In this document: in pieces, positions 11,987-28,675 of the stretch | How positions within the stretch are numbered: the first letter of the stretch is position 1 | Layout of the letters: the number at the start of each line of letters is the position of its first letter | The notes under the pieces: model-generated | The model's input: only the letters and a program-made list of their open reading frames with translations | Database searches by the model: none | What the model was told of the DNA's origin: nothing | Position numbers and translations under genes: made by a program | Source: Arthrobacter russicus | GTDB lineage: Bacteria > Actinomycetota > Actinomycetes > Actinomycetales > Micrococcaceae | Assembly (NCBI RefSeq): GCF_031454135.1 | Contig: NZ_JAVDQF010000001.1 | Location: 1,860,001 to 1,924,000, forward strand | Reading direction: 5' to 3' | DNA: 64,000 bases

Positions 11987-11988
11987 GG

Positions 11989-13047
11989 TCAGCCGACTGA
12001 AATTCCGGCTTCGTCGATGAGCTTGGCGCTTTGCTCGACGGAGTCCAGATCAGACAGGTCGATCTTCGGACCCTGCAACGACGCCAGTTCCGGCACGCCC
12101 TGCGGACCAGCCACGCCCGGGACCAAAGGGTACTCGAATTGCTTCTCGACGAAGTATTTCTGCCCGGCCTCGGAAAGCAAGTAGTCGACAAAAGCTTGTG
12201 CGTTGGGGTTCTGCGCAGCTTTCTTCAGCAGGCCGACGCCGGTGACGTTGACCAGGGCAGCTACGTCGCCGGGCGCACCGTACTTGATCTTGGCCCGCAT
12301 ATTGTCCGCACCCTGTTCTGCTGCCGCCGAGAACCAGTAGTAATGATTGGTCAGCCCCAGTTTGATCTCGCCGCTTTCGACCGCTTGGAGGATCCCGCTG
12401 TTCTTTTCGTAGCTTTTGACGCCATTGTCGGCCAGCGCCTTCAACCACTGCGCGGTCTTCGCTTCACCGTCGGTCAGGCGCATGGCAGTGACGAACGCGA
12501 TGAAGGAGGCGTTTCCGGGAGTGACCCCGATCTGGCCTTTCCACTTCGGGTCGATCATCGCGGCTGCCGTGTCCGGCACCTCCCCGACGGAGACCTGGCT
12601 GGAATCGTAGGCCACCACCCGGGCGCGCCCGGTCAGGCCGACCCAGGTCTTGTCCGCTGCCCGGTACGCCTCCGGGACCTTGGCGAGGGCAGTTTCCGAC
12701 AATCCGCCCAACAAGCCCGCCTGAGCCAGCAGGCCCAGGGCACCCGATTCCTGGGAAAGGAACACTTGGGCCGGCGAGTTGTCCCGTTCGGTCAGCAACA
12801 GCTGCGCTTGAGCGGCGCTTCCGGCGTAACGCACCTCGGTTTTGATCCCGGTGTCCTTTTCGAATTGGGCAATCAACGGACCGACCAGCTTTTCGTCACG
12901 ACCCGAATATACGACCAACGGGCCGTTGTCGGATTCAGTAGATCCTGAGGGGCTGGCCGCGGGGGTCGCATTGGACCCGCAAGCGGCGAGGCTCAAGGCC
13001 AGCACCGCGGCCGCCAGCACCGGGGCCGGACGAAAAGCAATTCGCAT
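11989..13047 (-). CDS. fbpA: Ferric iron ABC transporter substrate-binding lipoprotein
   Basis: Captures Fe3+ outside the cell. It has 352 residues from ATG at 13047; GGAGG lies nine bases upstream. Signal peptide, lipobox SLAAC and the Fbp/Fut fold follow: LVVYSGRDEKLVGPLIAQFE, AQLLLTERDNSPAQVFLSQE, and the Tyr-rich iron site in TNHYYWFS. First gene of the fbpABC operon. The IdeR-like box at 13162-13180 lies 115 bp upstream, so repression by iron is the likely control. Confidence 0.93.
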   Translation of the reverse strand: MRIAFRPAPVLAAAVLALSLAACGSNATPAASPSGSTESDNGPLVVYSGRDEKLVGPLIAQFEKDTGIKTEVRYAGSAAQAQLLLTERDNSPAQVFLSQESGALGLLAQAGLLGGLSETALAKVPEAYRAADKTWVGLTGRARVVAYDSSQVSVGEVPDTAAAMIDPKWKGQIGVTPGNASFIAFVTAMRLTDGEAKTAQWLKALADNGVKSYEKNSGILQAVESGEIKLGLTNHYYWFSAAAEQGADNMRAKIKYGAPGDVAALVNVTGVGLLKKAAQNPNAQAFVDYLLSEAGQKYFVEKQFEYPLVPGVAGPQGVPELASLQGPKIDLSDLDSVEQSAKLIDEAGISVG

Positions 13048-13161
13048 AGGAGGTTCCTCCACCTGGTTCAAGTTCGACAACGACGTCGGCCATGGTGGAG
13101 CGCAATCTGCCTCGCTTCCGGAAAAGCAACGCCAGATCCAAGGACGCCCCCCACCGCCTTG

Positions 13162-13180
13162 TTAGATAAGGCTATCCTTA
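13162..13180. promoter_or_regulatory. DtxR/IdeR iron box
   Basis: TTAGATAAGGCTATCCTTA matches the 19-base DtxR/IdeR consensus TTAGGTTAGSCTAACCTAA at 15 positions and keeps the dyad. It lies upstream of the iron-uptake operon, where an iron-bound DtxR-family repressor is expected to act. The same box lies 67 bp beyond the end of the carbamoyltransferase gene. Confidence 0.85.
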
Positions 13181-13247
13181 GAATTGGCTGAAAACAAGCC
13201 ATGCTACAAATATGGACTCCGAGCCGGCGCGGATCAGGGCCCCGAAA

Positions 13248-14897
13248 TCAACCCTCCTTGGTGTACAGCGTGCCTTCGCACCAGATGTATTTCGTGCCGC
13301 CCCATTTGGCCGCCGACTCGACGTCGGGGAAGAAGCCGCGCCCCTCCAAGTTCGCACTGGTATTGCACAGTACCGGCACCCCGCTGAGCTCCGCGTAGTG
13401 CATCAGGATCCGGACGGTAGCGGTGTCCTGGGTGGACTTGATGGTCTGCAGCCGCGCAGTGCCGTCAAGATGCACGATCGCCGGGACGCGCTCGGCCCAG
13501 CCCGGTCGCATGCGGTGCTCGAAGATCATGTACGGGTCGGGCGTACCGGGTTCGAAGACCTCAGGGGCGCGATCCTCCAGGCAGATCGGCGCTACCGGGC
13601 GATACGAGGCACGGTTTTTGATGTCGTTGAGGCGGTCTTTCATCTGCGTGCTGGTCGCGGGCGCAATGATGCTGCGGTTGCCCAAGGCCCGGGGGCCAAG
13701 TTCCGCGCGGCCAGACAGCACGACGACCGGTTCGTCCTCGGCATGCAGCAGTTCCGCCAGCTCCCGCTCGTCGCACGACCGAGCACGCCAACCACCCGGG
13801 AGCGTACCGACGGCGATTTTCGGACCACGGTAGACGTCCCAATCCAGTGCCGTGTGGCCGTTCCGAAACATCTCACAGGCCGCAGTGCCGATCGCCGCAC
13901 CGGCATCATTGGGGAAGGGCGGGATGAAGACGTCCCGGAAGACCCCGCTAGCCCGAATCGCGGTGTTCCATTTGATGTTGAGCGCGCAGCCGCCGCCCAT
14001 CACCAGGTTGTGGCCGCCACCCGGGAACCGGCGCTGCACCGCCGAGGTGAGGCGGTCGAGCAGCTTCTGGCCGAGGTAGGCCTGGTAGCTAGCGATGAGA
14101 TCCGCGTTGGAAAGGCCCGGAAACAACTGCTCACGCTCGGCGGCGACCCGGTCCCCCAACTCGCCTACCCGGTCGACAGTGATATCACTGAGCTCTGCCA
14201 TCAGCCCGTCGAAGACGCCGAACGTAGTGGTATCGACGACGCCTTTGGCCGCATAGGCCATGGCTTTCCCCGCGACTGACAGGTGGTGTCGGATGGCCGG
14301 CTCCGAGGTCATGTCCTCGAACGGGCGCAGGAACGGCTCGAACCGCGCGCAGAAGGCCGCGAAACTGCCGCCGAAGACCGGCATGAGCACCTCGAGGAAC
14401 AACACCTCGCGGGTTTCCGCACGGACCAGGTATAGCCGCGGCGGGATGATGCCGTCCCAGACCAGGACGAATGCGTCCTGGCCCTTGGCCGCGGACGGGC
14501 TGGAGACATAGGCGCCGATGAGGTGGTTGGCCACGTGGTGGTAGCTCGCGTACTCGCCCAGGCCGGGGCTGCCGAATGCGTACCGGTCCAGTGCGTCGCC
14601 GCCGGTCTCGACGTACGGCGCGACCCGGAGCTGGATCGGATCACCGCCGGCGGAGAGCGCCACCGCGACCTCGCCGCCGGCATCGGTCGAGTACCAGCCG
14701 TCGACCACGAACTGGTCGATGTCGGAAGGCTCAAGACCCTCCGCAGCGAGGATCTCGGTCACGCGGTCGAGGTCCCCGAGCGCGGAGTACCGTTCGCCGT
14801 TGCCCAACTTCTCGATCTCGTAGCTGAAAAGAAGCCTCCCGTCCTCGATGACCGCGATGCCGCCGTCGTGTGATGCCTTGATTCCGCATATCCGCAT
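13248..14897 (-). CDS. O-carbamoyltransferase (NodU/CmcH/TobZ family)
   Basis: Transfers a carbamoyl group from carbamoyl phosphate, through a carbamoyl-adenylate, to a hydroxyl of a small molecule. Its 549 residues show both family domains: an N-terminal Kae1-like part with SHDGGIAVIEDGRLLFSYE, the paired His of SYHHVANHLIGAY and GGGCALNIKWN, and a C-terminal YrdC-like part with RAELGPRALGNRSIIAP, ASYRPVAP and VPVLCNTSANLEGRG. The usual EEERF-type segment reads EIEKL here. It is the last gene of the minus-strand arm of the cluster, 37 bp after a P450, and so may act on an alcohol made by that P450. In benzastatin-type molecules as I know them no carbamate is needed, so this enzyme predicts an extra tailoring step. 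Confidence 0.9.
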   Translation of the reverse strand: MRICGIKASHDGGIAVIEDGRLLFSYEIEKLGNGERYSALGDLDRVTEILAAEGLEPSDIDQFVVDGWYSTDAGGEVAVALSAGGDPIQLRVAPYVETGGDALDRYAFGSPGLGEYASYHHVANHLIGAYVSSPSAAKGQDAFVLVWDGIIPPRLYLVRAETREVLFLEVLMPVFGGSFAAFCARFEPFLRPFEDMTSEPAIRHHLSVAGKAMAYAAKGVVDTTTFGVFDGLMAELSDITVDRVGELGDRVAAEREQLFPGLSNADLIASYQAYLGQKLLDRLTSAVQRRFPGGGHNLVMGGGCALNIKWNTAIRASGVFRDVFIPPFPNDAGAAIGTAACEMFRNGHTALDWDVYRGPKIAVGTLPGGWRARSCDERELAELLHAEDEPVVVLSGRAELGPRALGNRSIIAPATSTQMKDRLNDIKNRASYRPVAPICLEDRAPEVFEPGTPDPYMIFEHRMRPGWAERVPAIVHLDGTARLQTIKSTQDTATVRILMHYAELSGVPVLCNTSANLEGRGFFPDVESAAKWGGTKYIWCEGTLYTKEG

Positions 14898-14934
14898 TGC
14901 TTCTTCACACCCCTTCTATTGCGATGAAAAATGG

Positions 14935-16239
14935 CTACCGGTTCAGTCGTACCGGAAGTGATTCGAGCCCTCGGATGATCGTGCTGTTGCGCCACCGCAA
15001 GTCGACAGGGTCGACGGCGAGGGTCATGTCGGGGAAAGCGTCGAGCAGCGAATGAAACGCCATCTGGACTTCGATCCGCGCGAGTGGCGCCCCGAGACAG
15101 TGATGGATGCCGTGACCGAAGGCCAAATGGCCGGCGGCAGACCGGCGGACGTCGAGCGCTTGCGGGTCGCTGAACCGCAGCGGGTCGTGATTGGCGGACG
15201 CGATCGCGAGGAGCACGAAGTCGCCGGCCAGGATGTGCGCGTTGCCGACGCGCAGGTTCTCCTTGGCGCAGCGGAATGTCGCGTGTTTGAGCGGACTCTC
15301 CAGCCGGAGGAGCTCCTCGACGGCGCCAGGCAGCAAGCTGCGGTGGTCGCGCAGCGCGTCCCACTGGTCGCGGTGGCTCATCAGGTGCAGCGTGCCGTTG
15401 CCCAGCGCGTTGAGGGTGGTTTCAAAACCTGCGATGAACATCAGGTAGGCAGTCGAGATCAGTTCCGCCGTGGTGAGCCGGTCGTCGACGTCATGCGCCG
15501 CCACCAGCGCCGTGAGGAGGTCGTCGTCGGAGGTGGCGTGGCGTTTGCGTTCGATCAGACCGGCAAGATAGCCGGCGACTGCCTCAGCTGCAGCATTGGC
15601 TTGTTCCGGAGAGTGTCCCGAGACGAGCGCGCTTGACCAGTCCTTGAAATCGCCCTGCTCCTCGACCGGCACGCCCAGCAGCAGGCAGATCACCCGGATT
15701 GGCAAGGGGAACGCGAAGGCATCCAGGAAATCGACCTCGTCGTGGTCATTGAGCGCCTCGACCAATTCGTCGACGACCGTTTGGATCTGCGGCCGCAGCG
15801 CTTGGACCGCACGGCCGGTGAAGGCCTTGCCGACGAGCTTGCGAAGTCTGGTGTGGTCCGGCTGGTCGGTGTGCAACATATGGCTCGCGATGTCCTTGGA
15901 GAAGCCTCCGCGCTTGCTGCTGTCCGGTTCCTTCTGTGCGAGCAGCCCATCGATGCGATCCAGGTCGGTGCTCAGCCTGGGGTCCGCGAACGCCGCGCGC
16001 ACGGCGTCGTACCCGGTGATCACCCAAACCGGCAGCCCGCCGATCAACGGCACCCCGGGCGGCATTCGTACTCGATGCGCAGAGCCCTTGGCACTGAGCT
16101 TCGCGTAGACCGCGTACGGGTCCTGTACGAACGCCGCATCGAGTTCCAATAGCGCGGATTCGGGATTGCGCAACGCGCGCTGGCCGAACACTGCTTCTCG
16201 AGGCGCAGGAAACCCGGCTTCAGGCCGTTGGTCCTTCAT
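14935..16239 (-). CDS. Cytochrome P450 (canonical), cluster
   Basis: Haem monooxygenase of 434 residues. The I-helix has the normal acid-alcohol pair (AGFETT, Glu about 273 and Thr about 274), ExxR is Glu309-Arg312, and the haem loop FGHGIHHCLG carries Cys about 381. The long N-terminus (PEAGFPAPREAVFGQRALRN) is soluble. Its ATG overlaps the TGA of a 39-residue upstream frame. Standing between the methyltransferase and carbamoyltransferase genes, it plausibly hydroxylates the prenyl part to give the site for carbamoylation; this role is inferred. Confidence 0.92.
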   Translation of the reverse strand: MKDQRPEAGFPAPREAVFGQRALRNPESALLELDAAFVQDPYAVYAKLSAKGSAHRVRMPPGVPLIGGLPVWVITGYDAVRAAFADPRLSTDLDRIDGLLAQKEPDSSKRGGFSKDIASHMLHTDQPDHTRLRKLVGKAFTGRAVQALRPQIQTVVDELVEALNDHDEVDFLDAFAFPLPIRVICLLLGVPVEEQGDFKDWSSALVSGHSPEQANAAAEAVAGYLAGLIERKRHATSDDDLLTALVAAHDVDDRLTTAELISTAYLMFIAGFETTLNALGNGTLHLMSHRDQWDALRDHRSLLPGAVEELLRLESPLKHATFRCAKENLRVGNAHILAGDFVLLAIASANHDPLRFSDPQALDVRRSAAGHLAFGHGIHHCLGAPLARIEVQMAFHSLLDAFPDMTLAVDPVDLRWRNSTIIRGLESLPVRLNR

Positions 16240-16355
16240 ACCGCGCCCAGCGCCCGGTCCGCGAGTGGCGGAATCCGCGTCGGCCGGCGCTCGGCCGAAG
16301 ACCCAGGGTACTCGTGCTCCAGCCCGGTCAGTGTTGAGTGTGAATCAATTGCCAT
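16236..16355 (-). CDS. Short 39-residue frame translationally coupled to a P450 gene
   Basis: ATG at 16355 follows GGAAAGG with five bases between. The frame runs 39 codons (MAIDSHSTLTGLEHEYPG at the N-terminus, ADRALGAV at the end) and its TGA overlaps the ATG of the P450 at 16239. The strong ribosome binding site and exact stop/start overlap suggest it is translated and passes ribosomes to the P450, whose own start has only a weak site. No leader/core organisation or Cys-rich part makes it a convincing RiPP precursor. It may be a coupling leader, a small partner protein, or an N-terminal piece separated from the P450. Confidence 0.5.
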   Translation of the reverse strand: MAIDSHSTLTGLEHEYPGSSAERRPTRIPPLADRALGAV

Positions 16356-16533
16356 GGCTGCCTTTCCAAAAATCGGTTCGCGCTTGCCGATCCGCAGCGA
16401 ACGTGTCCGGCACCTGCGCGAGTGCCTGATCGCGCTCGACCCAAATTCCCCGAATACTCGTGTGTTCCATGCCGCACGCCCGGTTCGCCTAGCGCTGGCA
16501 TGCGGAACTCCGGTTTGGGGCTTTCGTCGCGCA

Positions 16534-17418
16534 TCAGGCGCGAGTCGCGGTCAGGAACACGTAACCCTGCTCTGGTGTGACCGCCGAGAGACGCATAAAG
16601 TCGAGCAACGACTGGGCGCGCTCCTCGCCGACCAGCGCGCTCAGCTCATCGCGGCGGGTCTCTACGGCGTCGGCCATCAACGCGAGTGTGCGGTTGCAGT
16701 TGGCCGTGACGTCGCGGATGTCCAGGTCAACGAACCCGTGGGCGAGTAGCGCCCCCCGGTACTCTTCGATCGTGCCGAGCGACTTCACCGCGTAGTTCGT
16801 GCAAACGTGGTCGAGGACCTTGCGGCCCTGGGGGCTCACCGGGCCGCGCTCGATCAGGTCGGCGATCGCGAGCCGGCCGCCCGGGCGCATCACGCGGGAG
16901 ATCTCCGAGAGCACTTGGGCACGATCAGGCATGTGCCACATCGACTCGAACGCCCAGGCCGAGTCGAACGAGCCATCCGGAAACGGCATGTCCATCGCGT
17001 CGGCGAACTGGAACGTCGCCTTGTCCGCGAGCCCAGCGCCGGCCGCGAGCTCGTTGGCCTGCGCCACCTGTAGGCGGCTGACCGTGATGCCGATGACGTC
17101 GACGCCGGACTTCTGCACGAGACGCAGCGCGGGGTGCCCGATGCCGCAGCCGACGTCGAGCACGCGCTGGCCCGCTTGCCCGCGCAGGCCCTCGATCATC
17201 ATGTCAGTGAGCCGATCCGTGGCCGTCTCGATCGAGGCTCGATCGGCGTCGTCATCCCAATATCCGTAGTGGAGGTTGGGCCCCCAAGCCGCGCCGTAGA
17301 TCCGGCCGAACCCGTCGTACACGTCCGTGACGTCGCCGAGCGAGGGAGCTTGGCCGACGGCTCGGGCCCTGACCCGTGAATTCAGGTCCGCCGGTGTTGA
17401 GTTGGAGATATTTGACAT
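16534..17418 (-). CDS. SAM-dependent C/O-methyltransferase, cluster
   Basis: Class I methyltransferase of 294 residues. An N-terminal cap (VTDVYDGFGRIYGAAWGPNL then HYGYW) resembles small-molecule and isoprenoid methyltransferases; the SAM site is VLDVGCGIGHPA near 86-97, followed by ADAMDMPFPDGSFDSAWAF and MRPGGRLAIADL. GGAAAGG precedes the ATG. In benzastatin biosynthesis a methyltransferase of this general type methylates geranyl diphosphate; that is the attractive role here, but O-methylation of a tailored intermediate cannot be excluded from sequence. Confidence 0.85.
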   Translation of the reverse strand: MSNISNSTPADLNSRVRARAVGQAPSLGDVTDVYDGFGRIYGAAWGPNLHYGYWDDDADRASIETATDRLTDMMIEGLRGQAGQRVLDVGCGIGHPALRLVQKSGVDVIGITVSRLQVAQANELAAGAGLADKATFQFADAMDMPFPDGSFDSAWAFESMWHMPDRAQVLSEISRVMRPGGRLAIADLIERGPVSPQGRKVLDHVCTNYAVKSLGTIEEYRGALLAHGFVDLDIRDVTANCNRTLALMADAVETRRDELSALVGEERAQSLLDFMRLSAVTPEQGYVFLTATRA

Positions 17419-17728
17419 GATTACCTTTCCAAGATTCGGAACTCTGCTTAAAAGACTCGAACCTCCGCATAAAAATTTGGGATCGCCCGAGTTGGATCGA
17501 CTCCGCCCCGCTCACGCTTTCATGTCGCATTCAAACTTGAATTCCATCCGTTGCCGAGTATCACGAAGGAGCAATTCGGGTATTGGCAAATCATGGTGAC
17601 CGGATAGGCTTTCGCTCGAAACGCCGGCAGGAACAATTAGACCGACTCAAAGAACCCGTCACATAATTTCCCGCCACCTGCACAACTACGTAATATCCCC
17701 CTTGATTTGAATTTCGCGCAACCCGTAA
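17419..17728. other. 310-bp intergenic gap inside the cluster's minus arm
   Basis: AT-richer than the flanking genes. It contains the methyltransferase ribosome binding site (GGAAAGG) at its left end. I see no credible coding frame and no strong stem-loop. It is long enough to hold a separate promoter for the methyltransferase, P450 and carbamoyltransferase genes. Confidence 0.5.
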
Positions 17729-18976
17729 TCAGTGCCGCACGTGCAGCTCGCGCAGCGCGCGTAGTGGAAATACCGGGCGGTACTTCGGTGCCTGGCCCGG
17801 CACGAGCGTCAGCCCGGGCATCCGCGCGGCGATCGCCTGCACCGCGACTCTCAGCTCAGCTCTGGCAAACCCCGCACCGAGACAGAAATGGATGCCGTAG
17901 CCGAACGCGAGGTGCCCCGAAGACTTGCCGTTCGGGGCAAAGGCCGCGGGACACGCATGCGCCCGGCCGTCGCGGCCCGCGGCACCGAAGAGCATCAGCA
18001 ACCGGCTGCCCTCCATCAAGTGGACGTCGCCGACGACCACATCGCGGGTGGCCGTCCGGTACATGCCGGCGAGCGGACTGTCGAATCGCAGCCCCTCCTC
18101 GACGAGCCCATGCGCGGTGACCGTGCCTTCGACGACCGGTCGCCAGCCCTCAGGCGAGAGCAACTGCTGGTAGAGGATCGTGCCCAACGCCTCGGCGCAC
18201 GTCATGTGGCCCGCGAAGATCAGGGTCGGAATCTGCACGGCGACTTCGGCAACACTAAGCGTGTTTCCCGACTTTCCGCTGTGCAGCAACTCGCTGATCA
18301 GATCGTCTTGGGGGTTGGCCAACCGGTCCTCGGCAATCGCCCGGGCAAACGCGCCGAACTCAACCAGGCCCTGGGCGTATTCGCGCAGCAGGGCCGGGTC
18401 GGTATCTTGCTGCAGCATCATCAGTTCGATGCGCTGTTCGGACCACCGGCGGCAGTTTCCATATTGCTCCTCGGGGATGCCGAGCAGACGGCAAATCACC
18501 TCGAGCGCATACGGCACTGCGAACGTCGAGATGAATTCGAAATCGTCTTCCATGGCAGCTTGTTCCACGAGGCCGGCGGCGATCTGCTGCATCGTCGGCT
18601 CGAACGCACTGACCCGGGCCGGGGTGAACCCGATATTGAGCACCTCACGGATGCGGGAGTGCTCGGGCGGGTCGAGCGAACCAACCCCCACTGCACCCGA
18701 GCCGCGCCAGGTCTTGAACATCTTGGCCACGTCGTCCGGCAGTGCGACCTTGGGCCGAGGGTTGTGGTCGCGCGTGGAGAAACCGCCGTCGTCCTTGAGC
18801 ACGGCGAGTATGTCCTCCCGCCGGCTGACGCACCACGCATCGAGCAACGGGGCGTAGAAAACTGGCTCGTCGTCCCAGACGCCCGATAGGAATGCGTACG
18901 GGTCGTCGCGGTGTTCACCGTACGGGTCGAAATGCCTACCTTCGAGCAGCCTGCCAGAACCGTTCGACACAATCAT
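17729..18976 (-). CDS. Cytochrome P450 with altered I-helix, candidate cyclase
   Basis: A 415-residue P450 with intact ExxR (Glu294-Arg297 in EEGLRF) and haem loop FGYGIHFCLGA (Cys about 365). The I-helix reads FAGHMTC: the Glu/Asp normally before the conserved Thr is Met258. That acid delivers protons for dioxygen activation, so its loss hints at chemistry that does not need the normal cycle. Benzastatin pathways use a P450 that cyclises an N-acetoxy prenylated PABA through a nitrene-like step, and this is the best candidate here. First gene of the minus arm, divergent from the other arm. ATG at 18976 has GGGGGTGA close by; GTG two codons later is an alternative start. Confidence 0.9.
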   Translation of the reverse strand: MIVSNGSGRLLEGRHFDPYGEHRDDPYAFLSGVWDDEPVFYAPLLDAWCVSRREDILAVLKDDGGFSTRDHNPRPKVALPDDVAKMFKTWRGSGAVGVGSLDPPEHSRIREVLNIGFTPARVSAFEPTMQQIAAGLVEQAAMEDDFEFISTFAVPYALEVICRLLGIPEEQYGNCRRWSEQRIELMMLQQDTDPALLREYAQGLVEFGAFARAIAEDRLANPQDDLISELLHSGKSGNTLSVAEVAVQIPTLIFAGHMTCAEALGTILYQQLLSPEGWRPVVEGTVTAHGLVEEGLRFDSPLAGMYRTATRDVVVGDVHLMEGSRLLMLFGAAGRDGRAHACPAAFAPNGKSSGHLAFGYGIHFCLGAGFARAELRVAVQAIAARMPGLTLVPGQAPKYRPVFPLRALRELHVRH

Positions 18977-19377
18977 TCACCCCCAAATATTGTTGTGTTT
19001 GCCGTCTTTTTGCCTCGATCGGTGCTGTCGGCGCTATATGAGATAGCCGATCCAATTCCCCGACCCTTCGCCCTTTTTTTGACACACCATTTTCGAGTCG
19101 GTCAATCAATTTGGAAATCGGCCTGAAAACCGTCCTGTATCTAATACAGTCGCAGATTCCTATGAAAATGCCATGGTGAACCCATGAAAGTTTCATGAAA
19201 AGCACATCGTTCTGCACAATCTTTGCACTTTGAGAGAAACTCCAATGCAGTCGATTAATTTAACGGTTCGTGATCTTGTTTAAAACACGACCTTGTGTAT
19301 AGTCGGAAATAGTTGCGCAGTCAGCAATAACCTGCCCATTTCGGTTTCAATTCGCGAACCCCAGATATGGAGTTTTC
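18977..19377. promoter_or_regulatory. Divergent AT-rich promoter region of the cluster
   Basis: This 401-bp non-coding region separates the two arms of the cluster and is clearly AT-richer than the genes. It contains the palindromes ATGAAAGTTTCAT (19184-19196) and TTTCATGAAA (19191-19200), a short inverted repeat GCTAT/ATAGC near 19032, and a likely plus-strand promoter at 19276-19303. No regulator gene lies nearby, so the controlling factor would be encoded elsewhere. Confidence 0.6.
19276..19303 (+). promoter_or_regulatory. Putative sigma-70 promoter of the cluster's plus arm
   Basis: TTGTTT (-35, 19276-19281) and TATAGT (-10, 19298-19303) are separated by 16 bases. TGTG directly before TATAGT gives an extended -10. 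The distance to the first start codon at 19378 is about 70 bp. Confidence 0.5.
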
Positions 19378-19485
19378 ATGAGCACATTCGAAACGTCGAT
19401 GATCGGGCTCGCAGCGCCAAGCACCACCCAGCGCCGGAAGCTGTTGGTGCTGCTGCACGGCGCGACCTCCGGAAGGCGTCAGTGA
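19378..19485 (+). CDS. Short 35-residue frame translationally coupled to a P450 gene
   Basis: ATG at 19378 is preceded by GGAG with five bases spacing. The frame has 35 codons (MSTFETSMIGLAAPSTTQRR at the N-terminus, basic end GATSGRRQ) and its TGA overlaps the GTG start of the P450 at 19482. It is the first frame of the plus arm. Like the frame at 16236-16355 it precedes a P450 in exactly overlapping register. It may serve as a leader for coupled translation. There is no clear sequence similarity between the two beyond a Ser/Thr-rich N-terminus followed by Gly-Leu and Arg-Arg. Confidence 0.45.
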   Translation: MSTFETSMIGLAAPSTTQRRKLLVLLHGATSGRRQ

Positions 19486-20648
19486 GCACGCCGGTCCAGC
19501 TGCCCCTCGAGCAGGAAAATGTGTTGGAGCTCGCGCCCGGCTTGCGTGCGCTCCAGTCCGGAGGCCCGGTCCACCGGGTGCGCATGCCCCAGGGCGGCGA
19601 AGCGTGGCTGGTCACCGACCATGCCCACGTGCGCAACCTGCTCGACGACAGCAGGCTGAGCCGCAACAATCCCGGATCGGCCGCGGCGGACGGCGGTGCA
19701 GCACTGCTCGCGAGCCTGCTCGGCGGATTCGCCACGGACCATGCGCGGCTGCGCGAGTTGCTGGAACCGCATTTCGCCCCGGAACGGATAGCGGAACTGC
19801 GTCCGTACGTGGAGAAGCAGACTGGTCAGTTGCTGGACTCCCTTGCCGTGCAAGAACCTCCGGTCGACCTCCGCGAGGCCTTAGCGCTCCGCTTGCCGCT
19901 CCAAGTGATGTGCGAGTGGCTCGGCGTACCGCAGGAGGACAAGGACCGTTTCGGCGTCTGGACGCAGGATGCCGCGAATGTCAGCAACCCGGTCTGGTCC
20001 AAGCAGGGCTTCGACGGTCTGTCCGGCTACTGCAGACAGCTCGTTGCGGAAAAGCGCCGCAACCCCGGCAACGACGCGATCTCTCGGATCTGCGCCACGG
20101 ACGGGATCACCGACGACGAGGTCCTCGGGCTGACCGTATTGCTGCTGTTCGGCGGCTACGAAACGACGGTTGCCCGGATCGGCACCTGTGTTTTGCTGCT
20201 GCTCGCCGAACCCGGGCAATGGGCGGCGTTGGCGGACGACTTGGACTTGATTCCCAATGCGGTGGAAGAGACGCTGCGACGGTCGATGCCAAACCCGCAC
20301 AACGGCGGCATGCCCAGATGGGCACTGGCGGACTTCGAGATCGACGGCGTGCAGATCCGCGCCGGGGATTTCATCCTGCTGAACGTCATTGCGGCCAACC
20401 ACGATGAGAAAGCGTTCGCCGAGGCCGGCCGGATTGACATCACCCGCGACGCGGCCGGCAGCCTCACGTTCGGCTACGGCGCCCACTACTGCGTGGGTGC
20501 GCCACTCGCCAGGATGCAGCTGCAGACTGTGCTGACCCAGCTCGTCAAGCGGTTCCCGGATTTGCATCTGGCCGTTGGCGTGGACCAGCTGGGCTTGCGC
20601 CACGAAACGCTCATCGGCGGCTTGGTCGATCTTCCCGTGGCCTGGTGA
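19482..20648 (+). CDS. Cytochrome P450 (canonical, short), cluster
   Basis: A 388-residue P450. The GTG start at 19482 has GGAAGG six bases upstream; an earlier in-frame ATG at 19293 would lack a ribosome site and lies in the promoter. I-helix GGYETT (Glu227-Thr228) is normal, ExxR is Glu263-Arg266, and the haem loop FGYGAHYCVG carries Cys337. It is compact for a bacterial P450. It is followed by the prenyltransferase gene after ten bases. A role in oxidising the prenylated aminobenzoate is inferred from the neighbourhood. Confidence 0.9.
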   Translation: MSTPVQLPLEQENVLELAPGLRALQSGGPVHRVRMPQGGEAWLVTDHAHVRNLLDDSRLSRNNPGSAAADGGAALLASLLGGFATDHARLRELLEPHFAPERIAELRPYVEKQTGQLLDSLAVQEPPVDLREALALRLPLQVMCEWLGVPQEDKDRFGVWTQDAANVSNPVWSKQGFDGLSGYCRQLVAEKRRNPGNDAISRICATDGITDDEVLGLTVLLLFGGYETTVARIGTCVLLLLAEPGQWAALADDLDLIPNAVEETLRRSMPNPHNGGMPRWALADFEIDGVQIRAGDFILLNVIAANHDEKAFAEAGRIDITRDAAGSLTFGYGAHYCVGAPLARMQLQTVLTQLVKRFPDLHLAVGVDQLGLRHETLIGGLVDLPVAW

Positions 20649-20658
20649 TCGGGAACTG

Positions 20659-21555
20659 ATGCTGCATAAGATCTCGGCGGATGTCGTCACGAAGAGTCCG
20701 GAACCGATTCGCTCGTATCTCGTACTGATGCGGCTGGACCGCCCTACTGGGTATGTCCTCTACCTGCTGCCGGGGTTGTGGTCCGTGGCCTTCGCCTTCG
20801 AGGGCCCCTCCGATCTGCTTGCTGTGCTGGCCCTGATCGTCGCCGCCGTGCTGATCCGCGGCTTCGCCTGCGCCAGCAACGACGTGACTGACAAGGAAAT
20901 CGACCGGCGCGTCGCCCGCACGGTGGGACGGCCGATTGCCGCGGGGACGATCAGCGTCCGCAACGGGATCCTCTGGGCTGCCGCCCAGGCCCTGGCCGCG
21001 CTGCTGGTCCTCGCGGCGGTGAACGTCCAGACTGCCCTGGTGGCGCTGGCCACGTACCCTTTGATCGTCGCCTACCCGTTCATGAAGCGCTTCTTTGTCT
21101 GGCCTTCTGCATTCCTCGGACTCGTCATGAGCACCTATGTGTTCGTCGGCTGGACCGCGGCGACGGGCGACGCCGGCTACCCGCCGCAGGTGTACGGCCT
21201 GTTCGTCGCGGGCACATTCTGGACGATGATCCATGATGCGATCTACTCCCATCAAGACAAGGAATACGACCGGAAGATCGGAGTCAAGTCCTCTGCGCTC
21301 TTGTTTGGCAACGCCACCAAGGCCTGGTTGTCGATCTTCATCCTGCTCAGTGTCGCCAGCTTGCTGTGGGCCGGCTCGCTCACCCCGATCGGCTGGGCGT
21401 TCTACCTGATCGTCCTGTTGGCAGCGATGTACCTGTGCTACCTGGTCGTCCGGGTGGACCTGGACAACCCGAAGACATGCTGGGACACCTTCGTCGCCAA
21501 CACCTACTACGGTTGGATCGTCCTCGCTGCGGTGATCGCCGGGCGGTTCACATGA
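20659..21555 (+). CDS. UbiA-family aromatic prenyltransferase
   Basis: Integral membrane enzyme that attaches an isoprenyl chain to an aromatic acid. It has 298 residues and about eight to nine helices. Both Asp-rich motifs are present: NDVTDKEIDRRVARTVGRP (about 74-92) and DAIYSHQDKEYDRKIGVKS (about 193-211). These resemble 4-hydroxybenzoate polyprenyltransferases. Together with the PABA genes that follow, the acceptor is probably p-aminobenzoate or its N-oxidised form and the donor a short allylic diphosphate such as GPP. Its stop overlaps the next start (ATGA). The start at 20659 was chosen because it lies just after the P450 stop. Confidence 0.92.
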   Translation: MLHKISADVVTKSPEPIRSYLVLMRLDRPTGYVLYLLPGLWSVAFAFEGPSDLLAVLALIVAAVLIRGFACASNDVTDKEIDRRVARTVGRPIAAGTISVRNGILWAAAQALAALLVLAAVNVQTALVALATYPLIVAYPFMKRFFVWPSAFLGLVMSTYVFVGWTAATGDAGYPPQVYGLFVAGTFWTMIHDAIYSHQDKEYDRKIGVKSSALLFGNATKAWLSIFILLSVASLLWAGSLTPIGWAFYLIVLLAAMYLCYLVVRVDLDNPKTCWDTFVANTYYGWIVLAAVIAGRFT

Positions 21556-22382
21556 GCGACTCGATGTGGCAAGGAAGCGGCGTCGATCTGGACGCGTATC
21601 TGACCCGGGTGGGCTACGAAGGCGACGTGGCGGCGAACCTCGCGACCTTGCAGCGCCTGCACGCCGCGCATGTGGAGGCGATCCCGTTCGACAACCTCGA
21701 CCCGCTGCTGGGCAGGACCGAGGTTCCGCTCGACATCGCTCACGTCCAGGAGAAGATCGTTCGGCAGGGCCGCGGCGGCTGGTGCCTGGAGCAGGTCGCC
21801 TTGATGGCGGCGGTGCTCGAGCGCATCGGGTTCACCTTCACGGCGTTCGCCGGACGGACGCGAATCCGTACCGGCAGCCCGTTCGGACCCGCGTTGCACG
21901 TCGCGCTCGCGGTGCACGCCGAGGACGGACTCTGGCTGCACGACGTGAGTTTCGGTGCGTACGGGCTGCACGAACCGATGCGGCTCATGGATGGTGCGCG
22001 GTTGGACGGCGACTTCTCGTTCGACCTAGTGCGCGAAATGTCCGGCGAGCGTGTGCTGCGGTTCCTGCGGCCCGAAGGCCCGGCAGAGCTGTACGGCTTC
22101 ACCATGGACATGCGCTACCCCTCAGATTTCGAGTTGTTGAATCACTTCTGCCTCACGCACCCGCGATCGCCGTTCAACCACCGGGTGGTTCTCCAACGCA
22201 CGCAGGCACGGGTGAGGCACTTGCTCGTCGGAAACCAGCTCACCGAGCTCCGACCGGGGGAGCCGGCTGCGGTTCGCGAGCTCGACGAAGCCGAAGTGCT
22301 CGCTGCGCTACAGGAGATTTTCGGGATCAGCTTGCGATCCGCCGACATCATGGCTCTCGGGAAAGTCTTGGCCTGCCGATGA
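21552..22382 (+). CDS. Arylamine N-acetyltransferase (NAT family)
   Basis: Acetyl-CoA-dependent transferase of 276 residues. The NAT catalytic triad is complete: Cys78 in RGGWCLEQ, His116 in GPALHVALAV, Asp131 in WLHDVSFGAYG. It overlaps the prenyltransferase stop and the PabAB start with ATGA junctions, so it is an integral operon member. NAT enzymes also O-acetylate N-hydroxyarylamines. In benzastatin biosynthesis a NAT homologue makes the N-acetoxy leaving group used by the cyclising P450, and the same task is likely here. Confidence 0.92.
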   Translation: MSDSMWQGSGVDLDAYLTRVGYEGDVAANLATLQRLHAAHVEAIPFDNLDPLLGRTEVPLDIAHVQEKIVRQGRGGWCLEQVALMAAVLERIGFTFTAFAGRTRIRTGSPFGPALHVALAVHAEDGLWLHDVSFGAYGLHEPMRLMDGARLDGDFSFDLVREMSGERVLRFLRPEGPAELYGFTMDMRYPSDFELLNHFCLTHPRSPFNHRVVLQRTQARVRHLLVGNQLTELRPGEPAAVRELDEAEVLAALQEIFGISLRSADIMALGKVLACR

Positions 22383-24484
22383 CCCGGACATTGCTGGTTG
22401 ACAACTACGATTCGTACACCTTCAACCTGTTCCAGCTGATCGCCGAGATCAACGGCCAGGAGCCGCTCGTGGTGGTCAATGACGATCCGATGTTGTCCGG
22501 ACCGCTGCCGGAGGAGATCGCCAACATCATCGTCTCCCCCGGCCCCGGCCGGCCACAGAACCCGCGCGACATCGGCCTGGCCGGCGATCTGTTGCGGCGC
22601 ACCAGGCTGCCGGTGCTGGGTGTCTGCCTCGGACATCAGGCGATCGCTCATCTGGCCGGCGCGTCCGTGACCGCCGCGCCTGAACCGAGGCACGGGCACC
22701 TGGCCAAGGTTTCCCACAACGGTGATCCGCTATTCGCCGGGGTCCCCCGCAAGTTCGTCGCGGTTCGCTATCATTCGCTGTGCGTCGAGGAACCGCTGCC
22801 GGAAGAGCTCATCGCCACCGCCTGGGCGGAAGACGGGGTGCTGATGGCGTTGCGGCACCAGGACCGGCCGCAGTGGGGCGTGCAATTCCACCCCGAGTCG
22901 GTCGCGTCCCAGCACGGCAGGGAAATCCTGCGGAACTTCGCCGAACTGAGCCGCCGGACGCAGCGCGGGCAACGGCCGTCCGGCACGGTCACCGCGGCTG
23001 TGAACCCCGCCCGTGACGCCGCTGCCGAACCGAGCGCGGAACTGAGCATCGTGAGTCGGATCGTGCTAACCGACGCTGACACCGAGAGCGTCTTCCTCGG
23101 GCTGTTCGCCGATCAACCGACCTGCTTCTGGCTGGACAGCAGCCGAGTGGAAGCAGGCCTGTCTCGGTTCTCCTTCCTCGGAGACACCACGGGGCCGCTC
23201 AGCGAACTGCTGACCTACCGCACTGGCAGCGGGGTGGTTACGGTGCAGACCGCGGGCGGCGTCCGGGTCGAACCCGGCAGCATCTTCGACGTCCTCGAGC
23301 AACGGCTGGGCGACCGGCGCATCGCCTCCACAGAACTGCCGTTCGACCTGACCGGCGGCTACGTCGGCTACTTCGGCTACGAGCTCAAGGCCGAGTGCGG
23401 GGCTACCGCCCGCCACACCGCCGAAACTCCTGATGCGGTCTGGATGTTCGCAGACCGGGTCATCGCGGTCGACCACCTCCAGGGAGTGACCTATTTGGTG
23501 GCGGTGCACGACGAAAAGACCGCCGACGATGCGCACGAATGGCTGGACCAGACGGCCGCGAAGCTCGTCGGCCTGCCCCCGGCCGACGACGATCCGTACC
23601 TCGCTCCAGCCCTCAGCCAGCCCGCAGAGTTAGCAGACCATCTGGTCCGCGACCGCGCCCAGTACCTCGCGGACATCGAGGAGTGTCAACGGCAGCTGAA
23701 CCTGGGCGAGAGCTACGAGATCTGCTTGACCGACAAGTTGCACCTGCCATTCGAAGACGACGATGTTGCCTTTTACCGGCGGCTGCGTCGGCTGAATCCG
23801 GCACCATACGGCGCCCTGCTGCGCCTCGGCGACCTCACTGTCTTCAGTTCCTCGCCGGAGCGGTTCCTGCGCATCGAGCGGGACCGCACAGTGACCAGCA
23901 AGCCGATCAAAGGCACCGCCGCTCGCGACGCAGATCCAGTGCGCGACGCCGAGATCGCCGCCACCCTCGCTTCGAGCGCCAAAACTCAGGCCGAGAACCT
24001 GATGATCGTCGACCTGCTGCGCAACGATCTCGGCCAGGTGTGCGAGGTGGGCAGCATCAAGGTCGACCCGTACCTGGCAGTCGAGAGTTATCAGACCGTG
24101 CACCAGCTGGTCTCGACCGTCCACGGGCGGCTCCAGGACGGGATCAGCGCGATGGATTGCGTCCGGCAGTGTTTCCCCGGCGGTTCGATGACCGGGGCGC
24201 CGAAACGTCGCACGCTGGAGATCATCGACCGCCTGGAGACCGAGGCCAGGGGCGTGTACTCCGGCACTCTCGGTTTCTTCGGCCTCTCCGGCGGCACGGA
24301 CCTGAACATCGTCATCCGCACCGCGGTTCGCGTCGGTGACCGGTTGAGCATCGGTGCCGGCGGAGCGATCGTGCTCGACTCCGACCCCCAGGAAGAATAC
24401 GAAGAGATGCTGCTCAAGGCGGCGGCGTCGCTGCGCGCCTGGCGTGCACCGACAGCAACGAGCACGGGCGGCTCCCCGCGATGA
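22379..24484 (+). CDS. pabAB: Aminodeoxychorismate synthase, fused PabA-PabB
   Basis: Converts chorismate and glutamine to 4-amino-4-deoxychorismate, the first step to PABA. The 701-residue protein joins an N-terminal glutaminase (residues 1-200; Cys83 in GVCLGHQAIA and the FHPES His/Glu pair), a linker (about 200-225), and a chorismate-binding domain. PIKGT near 510, with the Lys that marks aminodeoxychorismate rather than anthranilate synthases, plus NLMIVDLLRNDLG and GGSMTGAPK, identify the PabB part. A fused dedicated copy inside an operon with AurF and NAT genes marks PABA as the cluster's building block rather than for folate. Confidence 0.95.
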   Translation: MTRTLLVDNYDSYTFNLFQLIAEINGQEPLVVVNDDPMLSGPLPEEIANIIVSPGPGRPQNPRDIGLAGDLLRRTRLPVLGVCLGHQAIAHLAGASVTAAPEPRHGHLAKVSHNGDPLFAGVPRKFVAVRYHSLCVEEPLPEELIATAWAEDGVLMALRHQDRPQWGVQFHPESVASQHGREILRNFAELSRRTQRGQRPSGTVTAAVNPARDAAAEPSAELSIVSRIVLTDADTESVFLGLFADQPTCFWLDSSRVEAGLSRFSFLGDTTGPLSELLTYRTGSGVVTVQTAGGVRVEPGSIFDVLEQRLGDRRIASTELPFDLTGGYVGYFGYELKAECGATARHTAETPDAVWMFADRVIAVDHLQGVTYLVAVHDEKTADDAHEWLDQTAAKLVGLPPADDDPYLAPALSQPAELADHLVRDRAQYLADIEECQRQLNLGESYEICLTDKLHLPFEDDDVAFYRRLRRLNPAPYGALLRLGDLTVFSSSPERFLRIERDRTVTSKPIKGTAARDADPVRDAEIAATLASSAKTQAENLMIVDLLRNDLGQVCEVGSIKVDPYLAVESYQTVHQLVSTVHGRLQDGISAMDCVRQCFPGGSMTGAPKRRTLEIIDRLETEARGVYSGTLGFFGLSGGTDLNIVIRTAVRVGDRLSIGAGGAIVLDSDPQEEYEEMLLKAAASLRAWRAPTATSTGGSPR

Positions 24485-25266
24485 GCGACAACGGGATTCG
24501 CCGGTGGTGGGACGACGGGTGGTCGCAGTCCGATGCCATCGGGACGGTGCGGATCGTCGATTCGTGGCTCGTGGACGAAGGACGGGTGCGGGGGTTCAGC
24601 CGACACGCCGAACGCTTTGCCAAGGCATGCTCCCGGTTCGCCGGACCGGGAACCGACCGCTTCCTGCGCGCAGTCGCCGAGTCACTGCCGGCACGGGGCC
24701 GGTGGTTTCCCCGCGTCGAACTCGTGGAGACCGGCTCGCGGACGCGACTGCGGCTGTGGCTGCGTCCCGCGCCTCCGCCCACCACCACCGTCCGGTTGTG
24801 GGATTCGGGACCCGATCGCCGGAGCCTGCCCATGGTCAAGGGCTTCGACCTCGACCACCTGGCTGCCCTGCGCGCTGCTGCGATCGCGGCCGGAGCGGAC
24901 GAGGCGCTGCTGCTCTCGGCTGAAGGGCACGTGCTCGAAGGCTCCGCGACGAGCATCCTCTGGTGGCGCGGCGACACGCTGTGCGGTCCGCCCCCCGGTG
25001 CCGGCCTGCTGCCCGGAATCACCCGGGCGTTGCTCGGCGAGCTGACCGGACGCCCGGTCCTCTCCGAGTCTGCCAATCCAGCGGAACTGGCTGGTGTTCC
25101 GGTGTGGGCGGTCAACGCCCTGCACGGCATCCGGCCGGTCGCCGGAGGGCTGGGCCGCTTCCGCGACGAGGATGCCGAGCTGGCCGCGCAGTGGCAGTCG
25201 CGTCTGGAGGCACTCGCCTCCGTCCCGTACCGATCACGTGAAGGAGATTCATCAGATGCAAGCTAA
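24481..25266 (+). CDS. pabC: Aminodeoxychorismate lyase (class IV PLP enzyme)
   Basis: Removes pyruvate from aminodeoxychorismate to give p-aminobenzoate. It has 261 residues; PLP-binding Lys120 lies in MVKGFDLDHLAAL, and the fold IV signature LSAEGHVLEGSATSILWW follows, then PPPGAGLLPGITRALL. Its ATG overlaps the PabAB stop and its last bases overlap the N-oxygenase gene. Fold IV also includes D-amino acid and branched-chain aminotransferases, but the pairing with PabAB decides the call. Confidence 0.9.
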   Translation: MSDNGIRRWWDDGWSQSDAIGTVRIVDSWLVDEGRVRGFSRHAERFAKACSRFAGPGTDRFLRAVAESLPARGRWFPRVELVETGSRTRLRLWLRPAPPPTTTVRLWDSGPDRRSLPMVKGFDLDHLAALRAAAIAAGADEALLLSAEGHVLEGSATSILWWRGDTLCGPPPGAGLLPGITRALLGELTGRPVLSESANPAELAGVPVWAVNALHGIRPVAGGLGRFRDEDAELAAQWQSRLEALASVPYRSREGDSSDAS

Positions 25267-26161
25267 TTTCGAGCGCGACCTGTTGGCTCAGCTGACACAG
25301 CGTTGGAGCAAGCGGGTCGCAGTGAAGAAGGACGAGCTGGACCTGGACGGGCACTTCGACGCCTCGTTACCGGACTTCCCAGAACACCTCGTGCCGGTGC
25401 TCGCGCTGCCCGGCGCCGAAAAACTCGACCGAGACGCACGCGAGCGTATCTTGTCCGCCGCGTGGATCGCGTACAACGCCAAGACCAAAGCCATCGAGGA
25501 TGAGATCATTCTGCCCGCGTGCCGGTTGATGCTGCAGGACCGGATTCCGGTGCGCCGCGACGATGTGGCCGTAGATGCCTTGCACCAGACGATCATCGAC
25601 GAGCACTACCACATCCTCATGTGCCATAACGCGGTTGCCGTGACCCGCAGGCGCCGTGACATGGCGGACGTGCGGTTCGCACCGAGCATCTGGTCGGTCG
25701 TGCAGGGCAGGGAGACAGCCAGGGCCGGGCTCTCCGGGTTCGACCGAGACATCGTGGACATCGCGTTCTCGCTGGCAGCCGAGACGACGATCAGCGGGTT
25801 TCTCTCCACGTTGTCGACGGCACAGGACATCCAGCCGATGAACCGGATAACCACGGACATGCACCGGCGCGATGAGAGTGGGCACGCCGTGGTGTTCCGT
25901 GAGCTGTGCGGTTCGCTTTACCGAAACCTGGACAGCGGGCAGCAGCAAATGTTCCGCGAGGCGCTCATGGAGGGGTTGACCGCGTTCCGGTTGCCGGACC
26001 CGGAGTCGTGGGCGGCGGTCGCGGCGCAGGGCGGATTCGAGATCGGCACGGAACAGCTGCTCGAGCAGGCAGAAACCGGACCTGCGCCGAAGCGGGACAA
26101 CGGCCCGCTGAACCTTTTGTTGGATGACTTGGGCATCAGCCGCGATCTGGTCATGGAGTGA
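25256..26161 (+). CDS. Diiron arylamine N-oxygenase (AurF/CmlI type)
   Basis: Non-haem diiron oxygenase that oxidises an arylamine to hydroxylamine or further to nitroso/nitro. It has 301 residues; AAGGAG nine bases before ATG 25256 fixes the start. Candidate ligands are Glu81, Glu116, His119, Glu176, His203, Glu207 and His210. All sit exactly 20 below the AurF ligand numbers as I remember them, so the whole iron site seems present. In this operon it would make N-hydroxy-PABA for the acetyltransferase. It is the last gene of the tightly packed plus arm. Confidence 0.93.
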   Translation: MQANFERDLLAQLTQRWSKRVAVKKDELDLDGHFDASLPDFPEHLVPVLALPGAEKLDRDARERILSAAWIAYNAKTKAIEDEIILPACRLMLQDRIPVRRDDVAVDALHQTIIDEHYHILMCHNAVAVTRRRRDMADVRFAPSIWSVVQGRETARAGLSGFDRDIVDIAFSLAAETTISGFLSTLSTAQDIQPMNRITTDMHRRDESGHAVVFRELCGSLYRNLDSGQQQMFREALMEGLTAFRLPDPESWAAVAAQGGFEIGTEQLLEQAETGPAPKRDNGPLNLLLDDLGISRDLVME

Positions 26162-26201
26162 GGGCAGAAGCCGTCCGGATCACCGGCCGACTAGGCTCGG
26201 G

Positions 26202-26237
26202 CCGATCCACCACCCCGTTTCCAGGCCGGGTGATGGA
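26202..26237 (+). terminator. Possible imperfect stem-loop after the N-oxygenase gene
   Basis: CCACCACCCCG and CCGGGTGATGG pair imperfectly around a short loop, about 40 bp after the stop at 26161. There is no T-run, so an intrinsic terminator is only possible. It would separate the N-oxygenase gene from the IPP isomerase gene. Confidence 0.3.
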
Positions 26238-26276
26238 CCAATGGCAACACCCGGCACGCATTCCAACGCGATCTTC

Positions 26277-26289
26277 ATGAAACCTTCAT
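26277..26289. promoter_or_regulatory. Palindrome ATGAAACCTTCAT upstream of idi
   Basis: This near-palindrome lies 48 bp before the idi start and matches 11 of 13 bases of ATGAAAGTTTCAT at 19184-19196 in the divergent promoter region. It may be a shared operator that ties idi to the cluster; the motif is short and could be chance. Confidence 0.35.
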
Positions 26290-26336
26290 GGATCCGTCAT
26301 AGCTAGACAACAACTCGACTGAGAAAGGATGGCTTC

Positions 26337-26942
26337 ATGCCAAATTCCACCCGGGTAGTGCTTGCCGATGAATCGGGCCATGCCGTCGGGAGCGCGTTGA
26401 AGTCGGAGGTGCACCATCTGGATACGCCTCTTCACTTTGCGTTCTCCTGCTATGTGTTCGACTCACAAGGCCGTTTTTTGGCCACGCGCCGTAGCCTTTC
26501 GAAGCTGACCTGGCCCGGTGTCTGGACCAACTCGTGCTGTGGACACCCCGCTCCGGGGGAGCGAATCGGAGACGCTGCCCACCGACGCCTGCAACAGGAG
26601 TTGGGACTGACCCCTACGAAGATGGGCATGGTGCTTCCCGACTTCCGTTATCGCACCACGATGGACAACGGGATTGTGGAAAATGAAATCTGTCCGGTAT
26701 TCGCTGCTTTTGTAACCGACGGTGAGCCGAGTCCGGACCCCTCCGAGGTTGCGGACTACCGCTGGTTTGCCTGGCCGTCGTTTCGCGATCGGGCCCGGTC
26801 AGGCGAGCTTCAAGTTTCGCCTTGGGCCACGCTGCAAATCGACCTGTTGGTCAACTTTTTGGACGACCCAAAGACTTGGCCGATGCGAGATTTGTCGAAC
26901 CTGCCGACTCCCTGGGATCGGCCGTTGATTGTCGGCGGTTGA
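26337..26942 (+). CDS. idi: Isopentenyl-diphosphate delta-isomerase, type 1
   Basis: Interconverts IPP and DMAPP, setting the allylic pool for prenyl chains. The 201-residue Nudix-fold protein has the catalytic Cys in TNSCCGHP, the metal site HHLDTPLHFAFS, and the catalytic Glu in DNGIVENEICPVF. AAAGGA precedes ATG. It lies 175 bp after the N-oxygenase gene on the same strand and is the right edge of the recognisable cluster, probably to boost precursor for the UbiA enzyme. No prenyl diphosphate synthase is visible in the window. Confidence 0.93.
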   Translation: MPNSTRVVLADESGHAVGSALKSEVHHLDTPLHFAFSCYVFDSQGRFLATRRSLSKLTWPGVWTNSCCGHPAPGERIGDAAHRRLQQELGLTPTKMGMVLPDFRYRTTMDNGIVENEICPVFAAFVTDGEPSPDPSEVADYRWFAWPSFRDRARSGELQVSPWATLQIDLLVNFLDDPKTWPMRDLSNLPTPWDRPLIVGG

Positions 26943-27182
26943 CGAAAAGCGGCCGTCCATACCCTTGGTCGCCGAGAAATCTTTGTCAAGCGTGGACCGG
27001 ACAACGGTGGATCCGATTTGCTCCGCACCAGCAGGCAATCGCTATCACGGATATGGTCGAGATGATTGGTCTCATAAGAAACGAACTCACCAATCAGCAA
27101 AAACTAGCCAAGTAGTTTTTCCGGCAGCCTTAGGTTCAATGCACCGCACTCCATTGGCCTAGACGATCAGGAGGTAGGCGCG

Positions 27183-28229: not shown

Positions 28230-28290
28230 TCGAAGCCTTGAATCTTGACCTCGGCGAGGTAACCCCTGCGAGTTTGTCCCCCGGCCTGTT

Positions 28291-28343
28291 CAGTGGGATA
28301 TACCCATTCCGCACCACTGAATTGGCAGTTTCAGTGGGATATA
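28291..28343. repeat. Two direct copies of CAGTGGGATATA
   Basis: Identical 12-mers at 28291-28302 and 28332-28343, 41 bp apart, follow the SDR gene. A related form, CAGTGGGACATA, builds the palindrome at 55915-55954. The element is non-coding in both places. Confidence 0.6.
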
Positions 28344-28385
28344 GTCGTCGCTGAATCGGGGCCGCCAACCGGGCCGAGAACAAAA

Positions 28386-28425
28386 CACAAAAAATCCCCG
28401 CACTCGTCAGAGAACGCGGGGATTT
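28386..28425 (-). terminator. Intrinsic terminator of the tRNA operon
   Basis: Read on the minus strand, arms AAATCCCCGC and GCGGGGATTT (10 bp, 14-base loop) are followed by a run of T. It lies directly after tRNA-Phe and ends the Glu-Asp-Phe tRNA transcript. Confidence 0.85.
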
Positions 28426-28433
28426 ACTGCTGG

Positions 28434-28506
28434 TGGCTCCGACCGGCGTCGATCCGGTGACCTTTCGATTTTCAGTCGAACGCTCTACCAACTGAGCTAC
28501 AGAGCC
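28434..28506 (-). tRNA. tRNA-Phe (GAA)
   Basis: 73 bases forming a full cloverleaf: acceptor GGCTCTG / CGGAGCC, D-arm GCTCAGTTGGTAGAGC, anticodon loop CTGAAAA with GAA, and the T-arm GGATCGACGCC. CCA is encoded directly after it (28431-28433). Last tRNA of the trio. Confidence 0.95.
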
Positions 28507-28545
28507 TTGGTGAACTTGCCACCGGATTCCCCTAGAGGAACCTAG

Positions 28546-28619: not shown

Positions 28620-28675
28620 TTGCTTTTTACAAGGCTTCCAGCTTACCAGCTAAAACTGGCTGCTTTTGCCTCGCG

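Follow-up and report, generated by a model that had tools for sequence, protein, structure and literature searches.

The reference case for a proposed natural nitrene-type ring closure by a cytochrome P450 is that of the benzastatins and virantmycin, whose pathway has been described from Streptomyces. BezA, BezE and BezG are tied to benzastatin by the literature (PMC10881772, PMC11843346, PMC11213898). BezA is the geranyl diphosphate (GPP) C6-methyltransferase of the pathway (PMC10881772, PMC12471008), the nitrene-type route of BezE is a proposal (PMC11843346), and a methoxymethyl group is found in the virantmycins (PMC9866866). Here we describe a related gene cluster at positions 13248–26942 of a 64,000-nucleotide stretch of Arthrobacter russicus DNA (the window; NZ_JAVDQF010000001.1, positions 1,860,001–1,924,000). 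Like the bez cluster of Streptomyces sp. RI18 (MIBiG BGC0001529), it has genes for p-aminobenzoate (PABA) synthesis, an AurF-type N-oxygenase, an arylamine N-acetyltransferase (NAT), a UbiA-type prenyltransferase with an adjoining P450, a second P450 and a RebM/MitM-type methyltransferase, a likeness that rests on orthology to BezA-bearing clusters and not on a gene-by-gene comparison with RI18. Unlike the RI18 cluster, it retains bezA and the GPP synthase gene as remnants and carries a further P450 (P450a), an O-carbamoyltransferase (CT) and an isopentenyl-diphosphate (IPP) isomerase. We think it likely that the locus represents a horizontally acquired and remodelled bez-type pathway.

Gene content and relatives of the cluster

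The cluster consists of 11 intact genes in two divergent arms, assigned with Pfam and NCBIfam, and every protein that the preliminary description had listed there was recovered. In the feature list below, labels from bezA to bezJ are our own inference, drawn from the ten-gene order and the published names (BezA, BezE, BezG).

13248–14897, minus strand: NodU-type CT, 549 aa (Pfam Carbam_trans_N and _C; HxxxH motif conserved)
14935–16239, minus strand: cytochrome P450a, partner of the CT (Pfam p450)
16203–16326, minus strand: bezA remnant, ~40 codons from the 3′ end of the gene for the GPP C6-methyltransferase (nucleotide local alignment; first seen by blastx)
16534–17418, minus strand: S-adenosylmethionine-dependent methyltransferase of RebM/MitM type, probably an O-methyltransferase (closest solved structures and orthologues; bezB-like by cluster order)
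17729–18976, minus strand: cytochrome P450b (Pfam p450; bezC-like by cluster order)
19378–19485, plus strand: bezD (GPP synthase) stub, 35 codons (local alignment; overlaps the start of P450c)
19482–20648, plus strand: cytochrome P450c in the BezE position, proposed cyclase (orthologue of the P450 adjoining UbiA in bez clusters)
20659–21555, plus strand: UbiA-type prenyltransferase, BezF-like (Pfam UbiA, 9e-55)
21552–22382, plus strand: NAT, BezG-like (PDB NAT matches; triad C78-H116-D131)
22379–24484, plus strand: fused PabA-PabB aminodeoxychorismate synthase, PabAB (Pfam GATase, Anth_synt_I_N and Chorismate_bind; TIGR00553)
24481–25266, plus strand: aminodeoxychorismate (ADC) lyase, PabC-like (Pfam Aminotran_4)
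25256–26161, plus strand: AurF-type diiron N-oxygenase, BezJ-like (Pfam AurF; PDB AurF 3chh, 2e-27)
26337–26942, plus strand: type-I IPP isomerase (NCBIfam PRK03759 and TIGR02150 above cut-off)
13242–27166, no strand: strain-specific tract that G097, a genome of the same species, lacks

The plus arm is tightly packed, as had been noted: ATGA overlaps join UbiA to NAT, NAT to PabAB and PabAB to the ADC lyase, and the ADC lyase and AurF genes overlap by 11 bases. A 972-codon open reading frame holding PabAB had suggested a NAT–PabAB fusion; this was ruled out, as NAT is a separate gene in a different frame.

Ten of the 11 genes have orthologues in bez-type clusters of 16 other actinobacterial genomes, from Streptomyces, Kitasatospora, Lentzea, Umezawaea, Salinispora and Actinoplanes. 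The orthologues are one-to-one and gene order is largely common to the 16 clusters. A NAT-alignment scan of the named genomes gave 16 bez-type loci and one unrelated NAT, with a shared core of methyltransferase, P450b, P450c, UbiA, NAT and PabAB, mostly also with the ADC lyase and AurF. UbiA, NAT and AurF all have their closest homologues in bez-type clusters, a comparison chosen beforehand as one that could refute a benzastatin-like identity. Independent occurrence of the two arms in related genomes, the other refuting condition, was not seen either. Orthologues of P450b and the methyltransferase adjoin P450c-UbiA-NAT in most clusters, and in Lentzea, Umezawaea, S. niveus, S. adelaidensis and genome G731 that cluster also contains P450a and the CT. 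In Salinispora, P450a and the CT are adjacent to each other.

The core proteins are well conserved. NAT is 61–79% identical to 17 orthologues and the columns of its triad, correctly described as intact, are conserved. UbiA is 82–84% identical to the Lentzea orthologues and has both Asp-rich motifs, P450c is 65–80% identical to 17 orthologues, and the heme-cysteine motif is intact in P450c and in the other two P450s. The AurF-type oxygenase (80–85% to 14 orthologues) has intact metal-ligand motifs, PabAB scores above the cut-off of the pabB equivalog TIGR00553, and the ADC lyase is 66–83% identical to its orthologues. The methyltransferase at 16534–17418 has orthologues in 14 clusters (65–80%). 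In a search of solved structures it matched 3bus (2e-67) and MitM 8zc8 (7e-64) first and BezA at 2e-13, so that its assignment as BezA was ruled out in favor of the far closer RebM/MitM-type O-/N-methyltransferases. P450b orthologues are 67–77% identical. The I-helix of P450b reads AGHMTC, with no usual acidic residue before the threonine, and is identical in all 16 sequences compared (the window and 15 orthologues), which suggests atypical oxygen chemistry or a different reaction.

With AurF as query, Streptomyces genomes yielded three close orthologues (83, 83 and 68%), two of them in clusters syntenic with the window. In both syntenic clusters a second methyltransferase, which the window lacks, is BezA (615 and 602 bits to PDB 7fbh). 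BezA is present in 12 of the 14 named or fetched bez-type clusters with a flanking methyltransferase, a count in which the second methyltransferase of two clusters was compared directly with the BezA structure 7fbh. Canonical clusters such as that of Streptomyces caeruleatus (L049/L072) share the core genes and a BezA-type neighbor but, unlike the window, have neither P450a nor CT and keep bezA and bezD intact.

Some relatives depart from this plan. In L073, L074 and L076 (Streptomyces sp. NRRL F-5630, S. celluloflavus and S. olivaceus), AurF is only 33–34% and PabAB 55–56% identical to the other bez-type clusters, with NAT, UbiA and P450c still at 69–75%; distant relatives have apparently taken the place of the N-oxygenase and the PABA synthase. 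The fetched stretches of L065 and L078 (S. ipomoeae and Actinoplanes sp. RD1) contain P450c, UbiA, NAT, PabAB, ADC lyase and AurF; neither bezA, P450b nor a close orthologue of the window's methyltransferase was detected in these bez-type clusters. L050 (G817) has AurF (68%), PabAB and ADC lyase together, with neither the prenyltransferase nor NAT in the stretch that was fetched, and is possibly a different N-oxygenated PABA pathway.

The carbamoyltransferase–P450a pair

The CT had been regarded as an addition to the cluster. This did not hold: orthologues of P450a and the CT occur in seven of the 17 bez-bearing genomes, always adjacent, and genome-wide searches found neither at that level in the other ten. 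The CT is thus an established option of the cluster family. The seven genomes (Lentzea indica, Lentzea waywayandensis, Umezawaea endophytica, Salinispora pacifica, Streptomyces niveus, Streptomyces adelaidensis and G731) do not represent seven independent evolutionary events. Their CTs are 76–82% identical to that of the window, and P450a orthologues (70–80%) occur in these clusters only, each time adjoining the CT, which supports a two-gene unit that would hydroxylate and then carbamoylate.

The CT-bearing clusters have the same core and adjacent P450a–CT pair as the window (66–86% protein identity). They differ from it in that bezD and a DAHP synthase gene are retained wherever the flanks could be read, and bezA in most; several have a carboxylic-acid-reductase-like gene, and no IPP isomerase was seen in them. 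The window CT shares ~47% full-length identity with the rhizobial nodulation carbamoyltransferase NodU, but it sits in an alkaloid cluster and not beside nod genes, and it scores 609 bits against the NCBIfam NodU equivalog, below the cut-off of 1000 bits. In plasmid records we found one CT relative (63% identity, on a Streptomyces plasmid) and no NAT orthologue above 60% identity. No paper naming a product of the CT-bearing sub-branch was found in the open-access literature.

Remnants of bezA and bezD and a gained IPP isomerase

bezA and bezD have both been lost, each leaving a scar. The bezA remnant gave nucleotide local alignment scores of 59–104 against seven bezA genes, with maxima of 53–61 for shuffled sequence. 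The best score was with S. acidiscabies (104, shuffled maximum 53) and the margin was slight for the most distant relatives (S. niveus and Salinispora). In the remnant, an in-frame TGA replaces a TGG (Trp) codon of the relatives. A candidate 5′ remnant of bezA, between the methyltransferase gene and the 3′ remnant, was dropped because its alignment scores lay inside the shuffled range, and we found no BezA orthologue elsewhere in the genome. The first ~24 codons of P450a, including its apparent ATG, come from the bezA remnant and form an N-terminal extension missing from the orthologues. P450a of the relatives starts ~24 codons later than this apparent start, and the P450a of the window may owe a new N-terminus to the bezA deletion.

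The gap between P450b and P450c, which in relatives is filled by the polyprenyl synthase gene bezD, holds a stub in which the start region of bezD is fused to its end region by an internal deletion. Against the bezD start of three Pseudonocardiaceae clusters the stub scored 53–69 (shuffled maxima 32–36), and its 3′ end matches separately. The two other polyprenyl synthases of the host match bezD at 33–36% only, and the genome has no bezD orthologue elsewhere. No convincing remnants of IspH, DAHP synthase or reductase genes were found in the intergenic gaps.

The IPP isomerase is the sole type-I copy in the genome. We detected none in the same-species genome and only weak NUDIX matches in the genus; homologues elsewhere in the family are at most 56% identical. 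The gene is not part of those bez clusters of relatives that were read. Since neither bezA nor bezD survives, we do not expect the classical benzastatin skeleton with its 6-methylgeranyl tail, and as BezA is missing we label the cluster bez-type and its host not as a benzastatin producer.

Origin, proposed product and alternatives

The same-species genome G097 is 98.5% identical to the window over 5970–13241 and 97.2% over 28386–36144. Between these flanks G097 carries 1.8 kb of unrelated sequence together with a stretch that matches 27167–28008 at 77% identity. None of 294 other genomes in the family has an AurF orthologue, and ~395 genomes of the order gave a single 26% match, which bears out the preliminary view of the setting as one without such clusters. 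Recent acquisition would be the simplest reading, loss from all the others being less economical. Composition was dropped as an uninformative sign of foreign origin (third-position GC ~0.80–0.84 in the cluster, 0.79 in the flanks). In trees of the core proteins the window groups with Lentzea and Umezawaea, and in those of the CT and P450a its partner is Salinispora (support 0.98–0.99), next to Lentzea. All of these clusters bear the CT, so both arms would derive from that section of the family.

Gene content, orthology, co-occurrence, the two scars, strain specificity and purifying selection are read directly from the genomes; each enzyme step, the order of steps, prenyl length, carbamate position and the formation of a product follow from homology. 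PabAB and the ADC lyase would convert chorismate to PABA, the AurF-type oxygenase would N-hydroxylate it, UbiA would prenylate the ring, and NAT would O-acetylate the N-hydroxyl to give a leaving group. P450c would then close the ring to an indoline or tetrahydroquinoline in the nitrene-type manner proposed for BezE. A methoxymethyl group may be built by P450b together with the RebM/MitM-like methyltransferase, and P450a may install a hydroxyl that the CT carbamoylates. The tail would be an unmethylated prenyl group from host prenyl diphosphates, perhaps helped by the extra IPP isomerase. The most likely product would be a prenylated PABA indoline or tetrahydroquinoline that is O-methylated and O-carbamoylated and lacks the benzastatin C6-methyl group. 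For a wider proposal we see the case as evenly balanced, namely that the P450a–CT sub-branch produces O-carbamoylated prenyl-PABA alkaloids of an unreported class and that the A. russicus cluster has also switched donor, from 6-methyl-GPP to a plain host prenyl diphosphate, by deleting bezA and bezD and acquiring the IPP isomerase.

Pairwise ratios of nonsynonymous to synonymous substitution (dN/dS) against Lentzea and Umezawaea are 0.12–0.33, not above the values among those relatives; they argue for function maintained before or since arrival and suggest that the cluster encodes working enzymes, although they average both lineages and are compatible with a recent loss of function. Together with the orthologous clusters in 16 other genomes they exclude chance. 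Other points also weigh against an acquired, working pathway of the kind proposed. The reductase, DAHP synthase and IspH genes of relatives are absent from the window (the reductase was sought in the window only), and no dedicated determinant of prenyl length is left in the cluster. The CT, P450a and methyltransferase trees lead to Salinispora and the core trees to Lentzea, a possible sign of mosaic origin. The tract sits on a long terminal branch (~0.22 in core trees) and has more substitutions than most relatives in columns that are otherwise invariant (CT 30, P450b 18, AurF 12), so that some substrates may have changed.

These features could instead reflect decay, in which the loss of bezA and bezD started a breakdown and the host makes no product or shunt products only. 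The two remnants, the missing accessory genes, the long branch and the presence of the cluster in one strain only fit this account, but all 11 remaining genes are open with catalytic motifs intact, dN/dS is not raised, and the L066, L073, L074 and L076 clusters also have no detectable GPP synthase gene, so its loss is tolerated; we regard decay as improbable. Somewhat less improbable, yet still doubtful, is a dimethylallyl rather than a geranyl tail, with UbiA using dimethylallyl diphosphate after the loss of bezD and the gain of the IPP isomerase. The reduction of the GPP synthase gene to a stub, the unique isomerase and the weak resemblance of the host's two polyprenyl synthases to bezD are in its favor, whereas UbiA remains close to Lentzea orthologues that adjoin a GPP synthase gene and shows no obvious remodelling; donor length is not readable from sequence.

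The site of carbamoylation allows a further alternative, which we consider unlikely: an ordinary benzastatin skeleton on plain geranyl, with the CT acting elsewhere than on the P450a hydroxyl, for example on a reduced carboxyl-derived end of PABA. An AMP-binding/reductase (carboxylic-acid-reductase-like) gene does adjoin the CT in Lentzea, Umezawaea, S. niveus and G731. The island, to which that search was confined, has the CT and P450a but no such reductase, and the strict pairing of CT and P450a points to P450a as the hydroxyl source. We therefore retain the reading of an acquired, remodelled bez-type pathway as the probable one.

Beyond the island, 27167–28386 holds a polysaccharide-biosynthesis-type gene that is 77% identical to G097 while the outer DNA is at 97–98%; it ends near three tRNA genes and is read as a recombined tract adjoining the island. 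The tRNA genes lie at 28431–28748, just past the right edge of the island; integration into a tRNA gene was considered and is not claimed. Farther away, 38772–45248 encodes a 2158-aa Gly-rich predicted secreted protein with no Pfam match and many repeats of the form ANAxAPITVSGNAIS, and contains a 96-base tandem array of 16.8 copies. We take these repeats to recall chaplin domains.

A pathway described from Streptomyces is now traced across several actinobacterial families, and in its clusters the P450–CT pair is gained or lost as one unit. The A. russicus cluster is a natural experiment on the prenyl donor, with bezA and the GPP synthase gene deleted and the remainder under constraint, and it makes testable whether UbiA and the cyclizing P450 accept an unmethylated or shorter tail. 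Its compact set of 11 genes in a small genome is handy for expression.

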